From NCBI GenBank assembly GCA_029775915.1, contig JARVKA010000009.1, positions 1 to 52,476 of the forward strand: DNA of 52,476 bases, in the 5' to 3' direction. Both the position numbers and the translations under genes were made by a program. This document shows, piece by piece, positions 10,081 to 51,839 of the stretch; within the stretch, counting starts at the first letter, position 1, and each line of letters starts with the position of its first letter. This DNA comes from Nitrososphaeria archaeon. Lineage in GTDB: Archaea > Thermoproteota > Nitrososphaeria > Nitrososphaerales > JANXEG01. Below the pieces are notes generated by a model. The model had not been told where the DNA came from. It worked only from the letters and a program-made list of their open reading frames with translations, and searched no databases.

Positions 10081-10715
10081 GGCTCTGTTAACTTAAGGTC
10101 GTTTCTATCACCCATTAATGTCACGGATTATCCACATCATCTCAGGGCTGAATAGCTGGATAGGTTAGCCACCTCTAAACATATTCCAGTATGCATGCCC
10201 TCCTCTTGCGTTGAAGCACTCAGTCTATCCTTGAGCCTCTGAATTTCTCTCTATCACCTCATGGAACCAGCTGAATTCATACTTACGATGCTCGAGCTTG
10301 GTGCACGCCTTCGAGTAATAAGGGCGCCATTCATATTGGATGCCTCTCATAAGCCAAGGTCGTCAGGAATAGCTCGCCTGGATGCTATTCCTAGTCCAAG
10401 AGAGCCAAAACTTTAGGAAGCGTCTCTGGCTCGTAGGCGACCCATACCCATGCCACTAAGCCCCTAACTATGATGGCTGTCTTATCCAAGAGGAACAACG
10501 ACATAGCCTTGAAGAACCTCCTGAAGCCTCTGGACCCCACTTCCAGACCGCCACGTGGCTCTTATCCATAAAAGGCTTAAGAGCCTTGAGGTAGACTTGA
10601 AGCTCAAGGCTACGAGGTAGAGGCTGTAGAGGACTACCGGAAAGGCAATCCTCACTCTTATAAACATGGGGAAAAGGCTGTAGCCCTAAGTCAAAAGCCT
10701 TAAGTTAACAGAGCC
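10081..10715 (-). mobile_element. Defective 635-bp IS with 18-bp TIRs and 8-bp TSD
   Basis: The left end at 10081-10098 (GGCTCTGTTAACTTAAGG) and the right end at 10698-10715 are perfect reverse complements. Both flanks carry TGCTATAA (10073-10080 and 10716-10723). The interior is visibly more GC-rich than the host and encodes only shattered pieces of a transposase on the minus strand. It sits in the divergent intergenic region between the coiled-coil gene and the phosphoglycolate phosphatase gene. The 8-bp duplication and GGCTCTGTT-type ends fit IS6-like elements, though the family assignment is inference. Confidence 0.9.
10150..10667 (-). pseudogene. Transposase remains within the IS, multiply frameshifted
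   Basis: On the minus strand, separate frames show transposase-like pieces. The first is RVRIAFPVVLYSLYLVALSF...WIRATWR near the start at 10667. The next is VWVAYEPETLPKVLALLD at 10394-10447. The last is YYSKACTKLEHRKYEFSWFH followed by EVIERN around 10248-10325. These match the order of an archaeal DDE transposase of the type with V(W/Y)VAYEP...ALL(D/W) and a C-terminal WFxxVIERN. At least three frame breaks and several stops separate them, so the copy cannot make a working enzyme and may be mobilised only in trans. Confidence 0.7.
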
Positions 10716-12665: not shown

Positions 12666-12833
12666 AATTAATCACCACCATTATACAGCTTCCTATATTA
12701 ATATTTGCATATAAATTTAATCGAGCATTTAAGAATTTACTATAAGCCTTCTCAAATATTTTTCAATAAGATTTAAAATTAAAGTGATATTGTGAGTAAA
12801 AGTTTATGAATTTTACCATTTTTAAAAACAAAA

Positions 12834-12843
12834 TTTATATATG
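12834..12843 (+). promoter_or_regulatory. TATA box of speD-bpsA
   Basis: TTTATATATG preceded by an A/T-rich BRE-like stretch. Archaeal spacing of about 25 nt predicts transcription start near 12862-12866. This leaves a leader of about 70 nt before the ATG at 12934, which is long for this window, where most promoters sit about 30 nt from the start codon. Confidence 0.5.
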
Positions 12844-12880
12844 AGATTTCCCTAAAAAACAAAGGGATAAGACAAGTTAT

Positions 12881-12991
12881 GCTTGGTTTATATTACACCA
12901 AGCTCGGGAGTTCGACGATATGGGGTGTCCGTAATGGGCATCCACATTATCGCCGAATTTCGGGGCGTAGACCCCAAAAAGATATCCCGAG
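12881..12991 (+). promoter_or_regulatory. Candidate structured RNA element at 5' end of speD
   Basis: About 100 nt of roughly 55 percent GC in an AT-rich genome, able to fold into several stems. Stem A pairs GCTTGGT (12881-12887) with ACCAAGC (12897-12903). Stem B pairs TCGGGA (12904-12909) with TCCCGA (12985-12990), stacking directly on A. Inside B, GGGTGTCC (12923-12930) pairs with GGGCATCC (12936-12943) around a 5-nt loop, holding the ATG at 12934-12936 at the loop/stem junction. GGGG (12962-12965) can pair either with CCCC (12972-12975) or with the CCGA/CGCC region at 12951-12956, two exclusive states. The pairings are read directly from the sequence; a switch function is inference. Confidence 0.45.
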
Positions 12992-13287
12992 TGGAGGAAC
13001 TTCAAGTAATTTTAGATAAAATAATTATTAAATCCGGTCTTCATGTTGTATCTTCAAAATTCCATCAATTCGAACCTTATGGTGTTTCTGCCATTTATCT
13101 TCTCAGTGAATCACACTTAAGTGTTCATACATGGCCTGAATATAGTTATATGGCTTTAGATATTTTTACTTGTGGGGATGATAATCCAGCTTTGAAAGCT
13201 TTCGAGTTATTAATAGCAGAGTTTCAACCAAAAAAGGTTAAAAAAAGGATTATCAGAAGGGATGTGATTGGAGAAGATAAAAGCTAA
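12934..13287 (+). CDS. speD: S-adenosylmethionine decarboxylase proenzyme
   Basis: A 117-residue prokaryotic-type AdoMet decarboxylase proenzyme that self-cleaves to make a pyruvoyl cofactor and produces decarboxylated SAM, the aminopropyl donor for polyamines. The LSESHLSVHTWPEY stretch contains the Glu-Ser cleavage site, the processing histidine follows, and FTCGDD supplies the catalytic cysteine. An arginine-decarboxylase activity, known for some crenarchaeal paralogues, cannot be excluded. I chose ATG 12934 because the family begins a few residues before G-x-H; in-frame TTG 12883 or GTG 12925 are alternatives. The first 60 nt are unusually GC-rich. It overlaps bpsA by 20 nt. Confidence 0.9.
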   Translation: MGIHIIAEFRGVDPKKISRVEELQVILDKIIIKSGLHVVSSKFHQFEPYGVSAIYLLSESHLSVHTWPEYSYMALDIFTCGDDNPALKAFELLIAEFQPKKVKKRIIRRDVIGEDKS

Positions 13288-14314
13288 AATTTTAAATGAA
13301 ATTGCAACTTCAAATAAAACTTTTTGGGAGCTTCTCGATAAATCAAATTGCTCTCTTAAAGATTTTATCACAACGTTGAGAACGCTTTATAAAAAAGGTA
13401 TTATTACTACTGATGGTAATTATTTTTATTTAACCGATAAGGGTAAGAATAACATTAATTTAAAGAGTTTAAATTTTAAGGTAGATATTTGTTCAAATTG
13501 CTATGGTAAGCGTATAATTCCAAGAATGAAATTTAAAGAGATTTTGGAAGGTTTTAAGCGTATAATTGAGAAAAGACCACGTCCAAATCTTGATTTCTTT
13601 CAAGGTTATATGTTAGAACAAGATGTGATTTCAAGGGTTGCTTTAATGCATTATTATGGCGATTTGGATGGAAAGAGTATTATTTTAATTGGTGATGATG
13701 ATTTATTAAGTATCGCTTTATCTTTAACTGAATTACCATCACGTATAACAGTCTTAGATATTGATAAAAGGATAGGTGAGTTTATAAAATCTATTAATAA
13801 GGATTATGGCTTTAATATTGAATTTATAGAGTATGATGTATCTAACCCATTGCCTCAAGATCTTTATGAAAATTTTGATACTTTCTCTTCAGAGCCCCTT
13901 GAAACATATTCTGGTTTAAGAGCATTTTTAATACGTGGTGTGAGTTGCTTAAAAGAAAATGGTGTTGGTTATTTTGGCTTAACTCTTTATGAAGCCTCAC
14001 TTAAAAAATGGTTAGCTATACAAAAGCTCCTTTCAAAAATGAATTGTGTTATTACTGATATAATTCAAGGCTTCTCAACTTATCCAATGGATTACGGTAA
14101 TTTGAATTATGAAGAATTCGCTTACAATTTGGGTTTTAAAGTTGGAAAAAATCTTGGTGTGAATTGGTATAAATCTGCTTTGTATAGATTTGAAATACTC
14201 GGTAAAGCTAAGTTACCACTCGAATTTAATAAAAAATTAAGGGTTAAATTTATTGATTTAAATGAGGATATAACTCATCCAAAACTTTATAAAAAAATTT
14301 TAAAAGAAGAATAA
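13268..14314 (+). CDS. bpsA: N4-bis(aminopropyl)spermidine synthase (branched polyamine synthase)
   Basis: A 348-residue aminopropyltransferase of the BpsA type. An N-terminal winged helix (about 1-65) and a CSNC pair (C75, C78) precede a Rossmann methyltransferase-like domain with the diagnostic IGDDDLLSIALSL (GDDD at 142-145), VLDIDKRIGEFI and SSEPLETYSGLRAFLIRG. BpsA adds two aminopropyl groups from decarboxylated SAM to spermidine, giving quaternary branched polyamines typical of thermophiles. The start is TTG inside the end of speD, with a 20-nt overlap, so the enzyme and its donor-making partner are translationally coupled. Confidence 0.9.
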   Translation: MEKIKAKILNEIATSNKTFWELLDKSNCSLKDFITTLRTLYKKGIITTDGNYFYLTDKGKNNINLKSLNFKVDICSNCYGKRIIPRMKFKEILEGFKRIIEKRPRPNLDFFQGYMLEQDVISRVALMHYYGDLDGKSIILIGDDDLLSIALSLTELPSRITVLDIDKRIGEFIKSINKDYGFNIEFIEYDVSNPLPQDLYENFDTFSSEPLETYSGLRAFLIRGVSCLKENGVGYFGLTLYEASLKKWLAIQKLLSKMNCVITDIIQGFSTYPMDYGNLNYEEFAYNLGFKVGKNLGVNWYKSALYRFEILGKAKLPLEFNKKLRVKFIDLNEDITHPKLYKKILKEE

Positions 14315-50401: not shown

Positions 50402-51839
50402 GTTACAAAGAACTTTTGGTCTTAATATAAGGCAAGAAACTTTATACTTTTCCGTAATAATGGCTGAGATATGTTGGCTCCTCCCACTCATCTTATTATT
50501 CACCCAATCTATGAATGTAATATTTTTTAATCTCCTTCTTTTAATCCTAATGTCATTTATTATAGCTTTTTATTCGACTCGAATTTTGCAAAGATTCAAA
50601 TTGCACCCCTTTCTATTCTCTTGTGCTCATATTGCTACAGCCCTTTTAACCATTTTTATGTCCATTAGTTTTTGCACGGTTAAAGAATACAAATTCTTTA
50701 ACTTTGCATGGGTTACAAGACTTATCGATTGGGTTAATTACTTTAATTGGAAATATGCACAATTTCCAGTTGAACTTGTCTTTATTATAATAACATGCTT
50801 TTTTTGGATTAGAGGTGCGATTTTAACAAGGCAAAGTCTTGAATTTGAATATAAGTTAAAGGAGTTTCAAGTTGGTATTGTGGTGCTTTACTTAGTAGTA
50901 TTAATACAAGTTGGAGGAGGTTTTGTTTTAAATGAAGCACCCTTCATAGTTTTGAGCTTTTACTTCTTTAGCCTCTTAGCTTTAGCAATATCACACCTTG
51001 ATAGTATGATGGAAGATAAGTATGTTTCAATAAAGAATCGATGGCTTTGGCTCCCACTTACTAGCTCCGCTACTATGCTACTCTTAGGAATTATTTTTAT
51101 TACGATAGTTTCTCCAAATCTCATCAAATCCTTCTTAGAGGTGATTATATACCTACTTACACAATTATGGTATATTATACTCTATATCTTGAGTTTATTA
51201 CCAAATCCCAAACCTTTACCATCAGAGCCACCAAAAGGTTCTCGAGGCTTTATTCCTCAGGAAGAGGTTATTTCTGGACAACCTCTTCCTCCATGGTTAG
51301 GAAGTCTCCTATATTGGTTAATGTTAGGATTAATCTTTGCTTTAGTCATTTTAATTCTGTTTATAATTATTCATGGCTTGAGAATATTATCAAGGCCTAA
51401 ACCTGAATTCATAAGAGTAGAGCGAGTAGCCGAGATTGAACCACAAAGAAGAAAGTTAATCAATTGGTTGAAAATGCTGATTTATACGTTAATCAAGTTA
51501 ATGCGATTGTTTGGAAGAGTTAGCACTAAGATTATAGTTGAAGAAGTTATTTATCCATCTATACCATCTGCAAGAGAGCTTTATCGCCAATTCTTAAAAT
51601 TAATGACTTCTTATGGGTATCCTAGAATGCATAATGAAACACCATTTGAATATCGAGATAGAATAATACCTATAATTCCAACAAGCGAATCAAACTTAAA
51701 GTATTTTACAGAAAAGTATGTAAAGGCTCGTTATGGATTTATGGAGATTAGTCAAGAAGAGTTACGATTGATGAATGAAGCGTTGGTTCGAATTAATGAA
51801 GCTATAAAGATAAACACAATACAAAAACATCAAAAATAA
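50394..51839 (+). CDS. Multi-TM protein with DUF4129-like C-terminus
   Basis: A 481-residue protein starting at ATG 50394 inside the stop region of the DUF58 gene (8-nt overlap). About six TM helices occupy residues 15-250, a proline-rich loop follows (NPKPLPSEPPKGSRGFIPQE), then another TM segment (LMLGLIFALVILILFIIIHG). The end is a cytosolic domain with YRQFLKLMTSYGYPRMHNET and YVKARYGFMEIS, typical of DUF4129. MoxR-DUF58 operons often end in a TgpA-like protein with a transglutaminase domain; that domain appears to be missing here. Confidence 0.8.
   Translation: MVKLQRTFGLNIRQETLYFSVIMAEICWLLPLILLFTQSMNVIFFNLLLLILMSFIIAFYSTRILQRFKLHPFLFSCAHIATALLTIFMSISFCTVKEYKFFNFAWVTRLIDWVNYFNWKYAQFPVELVFIIITCFFWIRGAILTRQSLEFEYKLKEFQVGIVVLYLVVLIQVGGGFVLNEAPFIVLSFYFFSLLALAISHLDSMMEDKYVSIKNRWLWLPLTSSATMLLLGIIFITIVSPNLIKSFLEVIIYLLTQLWYIILYILSLLPNPKPLPSEPPKGSRGFIPQEEVISGQPLPPWLGSLLYWLMLGLIFALVILILFIIIHGLRILSRPKPEFIRVERVAEIEPQRRKLINWLKMLIYTLIKLMRLFGRVSTKIIVEEVIYPSIPSARELYRQFLKLMTSYGYPRMHNETPFEYRDRIIPIIPTSESNLKYFTEKYVKARYGFMEISQEELRLMNEALVRINEAIKINTIQKHQK

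Follow-up and report, generated by a model that had tools for sequence, protein, structure and literature searches.

A conserved hairpin at the speD start

In the window, by which we mean the whole 52,476-nucleotide stretch of archaeal DNA analysed here, the start codon of speD is enclosed in a hairpin that recurs at related archaeal loci, and on balance we favour its being a conserved cis-acting RNA that controls speD-bpsA translation through a masked start, with an upstream open reading frame (uORF) opening the duplex and duplex stability tuning the output. The parts of this proposal differ in strength: comparative sequence evidence makes it virtually certain that the hairpin is a real RNA structure; translational control by it is highly likely; coupling through the uORF has about an even chance; and sensing by helix stability is put forward tentatively. 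Branched-chain polyamines, the product of this operon, enable hyperthermophiles to grow at heat, and passages on Thermococcus describe branched polyamines as important for high-temperature growth (PMC12979288, PMC12175538). What we describe looks like a novel control of polyamine synthesis, built into the mRNA itself, in heat-adapted archaea, and offers a route to testing how such organisms sense their need for polyamines; it is a phylogenetically broad structured element in which covariation links the leader to a protein-coding arm, and a case of a uORF conserved for its overlap, not for its peptide. To our knowledge few regulatory leaders are known in archaea, and no RNA element at archaeal speD or bpsA was apparent in the open-access literature, as judged by titles and the beginnings of abstracts.

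A preliminary description of this DNA had proposed a regulatory RNA over the speD start, within a patch of about 55% GC and preceded by a leader of about 70 nt. The position of the TATA-like element (Table 1) predicts a transcript start near 12860-12864, in agreement with that leader length, and the computed GC content of 12895-12994 is 0.54 against 0.334 for the whole window, a value reached by 2 of 5238 100-nt windows, one at the speD start and one near 10461. The minimum-energy fold of 12862-12995 is a single dominant hairpin, 12907-12961, of 23 pairs, interrupted by an A.C mismatch (12915/12953) and small breaks. The 8-bp hairpin noted earlier (12923-12930/12936-12943) proves to be the conserved part of this structure, whose outward extension had been overlooked. 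The fold has a z-score of -4.9, with none of 200 dinucleotide shuffles as low, and when foldability was scanned on both strands of the whole 52 kb (90-nt windows, step 15) the two lowest energies among 6986 windows fell at the speD start, other strongly folding windows lying at 51217 (-), 22567 (-) and 37411 (+).

Table 1. Coordinates of the speD-bpsA leader, the start-codon hairpin and neighbouring features in the window
Feature	Position	Strand	Basis
TATA-like promoter element TTTATATA	12834-12841	+	Sequence and spacing scan (prediction)
Predicted speD-bpsA 5' leader, about 70 nt	12864-12933	+	Position of the TATA-like element
Overlapping uORF, frame +2 relative to speD, 46 codons plus stop, ending 83 nt inside speD	12879-13019	+	
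7-bp hairpin at the uORF start (GCUUGGU/ACCAAGC)	12881-12903	+	Predicted fold; not conserved as such
Hairpin 5' arm, untranslated leader, A12915 opposite C12953	12907-12930	+	Fold, covariance-model match, pair counts
GGUG motif resembling a ribosome-binding site, within the stem, 6 nt upstream of the speD ATG	12924-12927	+	
Hairpin loop with A and T of the speD start codon	12931-12935	+	Predicted fold
Hairpin 3' arm, last base of the start codon and speD codons 2-10	12936-12961	+	Fold; synonymous sites constrained in relatives
speD (S-adenosylmethionine decarboxylase, MGIHIIAEF...)	12934-13287	+	PF02675 3.9e-35, TIGR03330 8.8e-36
bpsA (branched-chain polyamine synthase)	13268-14314	+	PF01861 1.7e-70

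That codon choice alone might produce the GC content had been offered as the alternative explanation. Codons 2-21 were recoded synonymously with the codon usage of nearby genes (n = 1000), giving a mean of -30.6 kcal/mol and a mean GC content of 0.362 against the native -52.5 kcal/mol and 0.524; since none of the 1000 recodings matched either the energy or the GC content, codon choice is insufficient as the sole cause. The region is marked by locally rare codons, namely GCC (5% of Ala) and, past the hairpin, TCC (3% of Ser).

The further stems of the preliminary description survive in part. For the 7-bp stem the complementarity is present, but the sister species has a different hairpin there; the proposed closing stem (12904-12909/12985-12990) is likewise complementary, but lacks its 5' side in the sister species and lies outside the minimum-energy fold; and of two hairpins said to compete for a GGGG, one (12962-12965/12972-12975) occurs in the predicted fold but the second was not found. 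Several other families, too, have small predicted hairpins at codons 10-16, the GG...CC there being supplied by the protein motif GVDP itself, and because codons 11-28 carry no added synonymous constraint we do not count hairpins of the GGGG type as part of the element.

Covariation and coding constraint

Pairing was assessed in a MAFFT alignment of 22 sequences (A5) that was not fitted to the structure, the structure being taken from one member; this alignment and another (A4) omit the weak or duplicate loci L079, L080, L083, L086, L087 and L088, and A5 further omits the window, L011 and L014, which have changes in arm length. In A5, 89.5% of 550 cells are paired, compared with 39-48% when the alignment is slid by 1-3 columns, and the compensatory changes that the preliminary description had proposed to look for in homologues are present as 23 double-changed cells spread over 8 of the 25 pairs. 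The covariation score is 0.227 versus 0.165, and none of 500 shuffles reaches either the pairing or the covariation score. Single pairs call for caution, since the number of pairs with change on both sides was reached by 16 of the 500 shuffles, and the number of further pair types was no higher than in shuffles, being equalled in 239. The clearest pair joins the leader with the first base of codon 5 (U-A in 10 sequences, C-G in 7, G-C in 1, U-G in 1 and unpaired in 3; n = 22), and its type tracks the presence of Ile or Val at SpeD residue 5.

An alignment of 43 loci fitted to a covariance model, taking the best match per locus after removal of ten antisense rows, gives a minimum of 26 double changes by a rough parsimony count, including 6 at the codon-5 pair. 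Among the 1026 cells of this model-fitted alignment G-U combinations far outnumber A-C combinations (186 versus 47), which identifies the plus strand as the folding RNA. When the lower stem was considered on its own, none of 20000 random re-assignments of arms paired as well as the true one, the preference of each arm for its own partner being moderate (own-arm mean rank 11.5 of 30, with 15.5 expected).

The coding arm shows constraint at synonymous sites. In the 28 ATG-start loci that remained of 39 non-redundant loci once UUG-start loci, L027 and L081 had been omitted, codons 2-9 have a synonymous identity of 0.83, and the value for codon 14 and beyond is 0.43; outside codons 2-9 no stretch of 8 codons exceeds 0.56. 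Across three divergence classes the values are 0.78/0.73/0.69 for codons 2-10, and 0.54/0.45/0.38 for codons 11-28 against 0.56/0.44/0.34 for the gene body. The covariance model (R1), built on 22 relatives with the window's genus excluded, matches the window at 12904-12972 with 65.1 bits (E 1.2e-11), its only other match in the genome being at the same site on the opposite strand with 24 bits. The proposal of a cis-regulatory RNA over the speD start finds support in covariation across archaeal classes, in a synonymous constraint confined to codons 2-10 and in a model match that owes nothing to the genus itself.

Distribution among archaea

Of 61 genomes searched at the DNA level, 4 (counting the window's own) matched, every one at speD. 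A SpeD-based scan of GTDB genomes supplied 80 loci, of 83 confirmed, 25 of which (L065-L088, L115; from Bathyarchaeota, Hadarchaeota, Nitrososphaeria and uncultured archaea) encode a SpeD N-terminus like that of the window; in the other 55 the SpeD start is different or not assignable, and these were excluded from membership. Of the 25, 22 show the hairpin clearly (L081 with just its apical part), and L079, L080 and L087 show it weakly. When R1 was applied to 44 selected loci, 43 matched at E <= 0.05; 22 of the 44 had built the model and match by construction, and of the 22 new loci 21 match, L209 marginally (0.048) and poorly aligned, the sole miss being L016, where speD-bpsA is present.

R1 matches were found in 6 of 250 genomes sampled from the phylum, including the window's own, and in 31 of 256 genomes of the class of G448 (Bathyarchaeia, by matching named loci). 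By comparison of coordinates, all 31 have a sense match 27-36 nt 5' of a speD start, and 3 additionally list an antisense match at the same site. A SpeD is encoded at E <= 1e-10 in 84 of the 256 genomes, and 36 belong to a close subfamily (E <= 4.5e-54). The close SpeDs without an R1 match number five: G855 and G462 share the leader of L079, a weak remnant with a UUG start; G504 has a weaker variant; in the predicted fold of G760 the GGUG pairs with CACC and the AUG lies in the loop, which is not so in that of G534.

A BpsA homologue lies immediately 3' of speD at all 43 loci examined, which were picked by protein motif. Outside that set, contig 100 of G830 (L168, L212) has the hairpin and uORF before a speD whose product reads HTWPK where others read HTWPE; the 1931 nt that follow yielded no bpsA, and on both counts this operon looks decayed. 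BpsA homologues are also encoded near speD in L090, L092 and the divergent Bathyarchaeial loci L219-L222, and the genomes of the last four are absent from the R1 matches of the 256-genome search. The hairpin is not general to speD beside bpsA, as L016 and L219-L222 have no R1 match.

Only the apical 9-10 bp remain in the genomes of family f34, with an apparent UUG start, and in two of its loci (L079, L206) the predicted fold lacks even the apical pairs; since the family retains no more than the apical hairpin, the long stem can be dispensed with. At the f34 loci (L150, L151, L175, L176, L177, L195, L206 and L079) speD apparently starts at a UUG in the loop of the short hairpin, and 6 of the 8 have an in-frame AUG in the 5' arm, 9 nt before it.

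An overlapping upstream open reading frame

As the GGUG lies in the stem and the ATG at the loop, both motif and start are masked; the 3' end of the 16S rRNA of this genome reads ...GGATCACCTCCTTA. On the predicted fold and the comparative evidence, the element belongs among hairpins that mask a ribosome-binding motif together with a start codon. A feature absent from the preliminary description is an open reading frame that begins upstream and reaches beyond the masked start; in the window its sequence reads MLGLYYTKLGSSTIWGVRNGHPHYRRISGRRPQKDIPSGGTSSNFR. Such a frame, starting with AUG, running through the hairpin in frame +1 or +2 and stopping at +59 or later inside speD, is present in 39 of 43 leaders, the window's included, and the other 4 lack one; in L174, L208 and L209 its AUG is at -25 to -31, within the hairpin or at its edge. 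In 28 leaders both out-of-frame frames are open into speD, and in 25 of these the longer is used, both being long in the other 3.

The frequency of uORFs exceeds that expected from composition. After dinucleotide shuffling of the upstream stretch, 13.4 of 40 leaders would be expected to have a uORF, compared with 36 found (L087, L208 and L209 joined the later count of 43); because the 43 leaders include near relatives we also give the figures by family, 14 of 17 against 5.1 expected. A conserved uORF peptide was considered and rejected, since even close relatives differ in using frame +1 or +2 and codons 11-28 are under no extra constraint. As the peptides are not conserved, we infer the uORF solely from the openness of the frame and the position of its start. 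We likewise rejected the idea that SpeD extends N-terminally, in frame, through the 5' arm: at 30 of the 43 loci the 33 nt preceding the ATG contain an in-frame stop. The window has no in-frame stop within that distance, the nearest being at -66, and from the sequence its speD could conceivably start at a GUG or UUG farther upstream.

Just after the predicted transcript start, 20 of the 43 leaders carry the block GAGG[AG][TC]A, followed in most by UAUGC; all 20 belong to Bathyarchaeia apart from L071, which comes from an unclassified archaeal MAG. In 17 of the 20 it lies 9-12 nt before the uORF start (a GUG in L074), a spacing seen in f25, f77, f88, f43, f75 and L071, and at three f81 loci the first of two GAGG motifs lies 18 nt before that start. 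The block was not found in the other 23 leaders, among them those of the window's genus and of Hadarchaeota. In L065-L070, L158, L159, L163 and others the sequence GAGGAUAGAAA followed by UAUGC stands about 80 to 93 nt before speD. The upstream block would be read more simply as a ribosome-binding motif with the uORF start, and it is possible that it forms a further RNA element.

Alternative explanations

The preliminary description had suggested that SAM or a polyamine might be sensed; we regard a true riboswitch, with a specific leader pocket for SAM, dcSAM, MTA or a polyamine and the hairpin as its expression platform, as unlikely. The gene would make dcSAM, judging from its family, and an RNA related to SAM-I that binds spermidine does precede polyamine genes in bacteria, according to part of PMC10853860. 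The assignment of SAM as substrate in the window is taken from the family model, and some SpeD homologues use ornithine or arginine and not SAM, as a passage of PMC10407285 states. The second conserved block near the predicted transcript start also speaks for a riboswitch, but this block fits a ribosome-binding motif and uORF start, is missing from over half of the leaders, and is, as GAGGAUAG, the only positive sequence support for a specific aptamer. Searches with Rfam 15, all its SAM riboswitch families included, returned no match in the whole window (SAM-I among those without a match), and the four matches within 12700-13300 are far under threshold, at E 1.1 or worse. The element is almost entirely paired; its few conserved unpaired positions are the start codon and the A.C mismatch, the latter being altered or missing in several members (e.g. 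L013, L027, L148), and the remaining unpaired positions are variable. The 7-bp and closing stems of the preliminary description do not recur in the same form even in the sister species.

Quite unlikely, too, is protein autoregulation, in which SpeD, BpsA or another RNA-binding protein binds the hairpin and blocks translation. The sequence of the hairpin is conserved as well as its pairing, three G-U pairs being nearly fixed in A5, and the hairpin travels with the operon; the ribosome-binding motif accounts, however, for part of the conserved letters of the 5' arm, and the protein for part of those of the 3' arm. We judge it very unlikely that the hairpin is a constitutive device that sets a fixed low level of speD, presents the AUG, or protects or processes the mRNA, and responds to no signal: the evidence here is all structural, and the f34 variants with their short or absent stem are compatible with such a role, but an overlapping uORF and long lower stems exceed the needs of a fixed weak start. 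A DNA-level palindrome (an operator) or a relict of GC-rich transferred DNA is scarcely credible, for whilst the window's SpeD lies inside a Bathyarchaeial clade, so that the operon was probably transferred, and the minus strand folds as well relative to shuffles (z -5.3), G-U cells greatly exceed A-C cells, the R1 score is far higher on the plus strand, and the extra synonymous identity across relatives is confined to the hairpin codons. A minus-strand RNA was rejected for its lower model score and fewer standard pairs.

Proposed mechanism and relation to known systems

In the translational control that we favour, the leader pairs with the first ten speD codons, hiding the GGUG and holding the AUG at the loop, a structure shown by the comparative evidence. 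Ribosomes would load near the 5' end at the upstream AUG and translate the out-of-frame ORF; since the AUG-started uORFs end at least 59 nt inside speD, these ribosomes would have to unwind the whole hairpin, and speD would then initiate on opened or slowly refolding RNA at a rate set by the time for which it stays open. As the element consists of little besides helix, its natural inputs would be temperature and polyamines that stabilise helices: heat or polyamine shortage would raise speD expression, and an abundance of branched polyamine would reduce it by stabilising the hairpin. Predicted hairpin energies for 30 members, calculated with nearest-neighbour parameters for 1 M salt without polyamines, range from -4.5 to -14.0 kcal/mol at 75 °C and from 0 to -2.9 kcal/mol at 90 °C. 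Stabilisation of stem-and-loop RNA by branched polyamines is described in part of PMC6393311. It is doubtful, yet conceivable, that the bare helix serves as a homeostatic gauge of the balance between temperature and branched polyamine, with uORF ribosomes as its helicase and the unit moved between lineages; were this true, a helix-stabilising polyamine would be made when the helices of the cell are too loose.

The closest parallels are partial. RNA thermometers (ROSE, fourU and similar) likewise mask a ribosome-binding motif and start codon in a hairpin that lacks an aptamer pocket and has G-U pairs close to the motif; here, by contrast, the stem is much longer, reaching ten codons into the gene, the setting is an archaeal polyamine operon with an overlapping uORF, and melting is predicted only. 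Eukaryotic S-adenosylmethionine decarboxylase mRNAs carry polyamine-responsive uORFs whose peptide sequence matters and on which the ribosome stalls; the downstream enzyme is the same, whereas in our leaders the peptides differ and the reading frame varies between relatives. In the polyamine modulon of E. coli, polyamine acts on an mRNA helix with activation as the effect; an action of polyamine on an mRNA helix is likewise what we propose here, without homology. One E. coli modulon gene, oppA, is mentioned in a passage of PMC10853860, and the spermidine riboswitch treated in the same source is also an RNA element before polyamine genes including speD, but is described there as bacterial, as a close variant of the SAM-I aptamer and as acting by transcription termination. 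At mgtQ/mgtB of Salmonella, as partly set out in PMC8092293, a short ORF overlaps stem-loops and its translation promotes that of the next gene; mgtQ is situated between two genes and is described as requiring particular acidic residues, whereas here the uORF peptide is not conserved, just its overlap and out-of-frame position.

History of the operon

In a tree of 43 SpeD sequences (FastTree, midpoint root, no support values shown) the window's genus is placed inside the Bathyarchaeia family f25, and the two f12 genomes are split between clades, one of them next to Hadarchaeum. SpeD of the window shares 82% identity with that of the Bathyarchaeal L065 and 81% with that of its own genus. Given this nesting and these identities, the operon was probably transferred between archaeal lineages, and from the sequences operon and leader seem to have moved together. 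The transfer pattern concerns the speD-bpsA loci of f1, f12 and f13 in relation to Bathyarchaeia and Hadarchaeota. The body of speD in the window has a low GC content (about 0.28-0.35) and the hairpin has not, a contrast that would fit retention of the hairpin under selection.

Additional observations

A second GC-rich patch of the window, 10281-10521, reaches 0.54 GC inside an interval of about 830 nt that contains no convincing gene; it gave no noteworthy Rfam match and has no counterpart among 25 relatives, the foldability of the minus strand over 10270-10570 is ordinary (z -0.8), and the RNase P RNA of the genome sits elsewhere. Betaproteobacterial speD starts (MDGIHLLGEWYG and the like; L106, L118, L120, L124, L142 and similar loci), whose loci yielded no BpsA homologue, also show strong folding in the region of the ATG, with energies of about -30 to -38 kcal/mol for these five, and their folds may merely reflect GC content.
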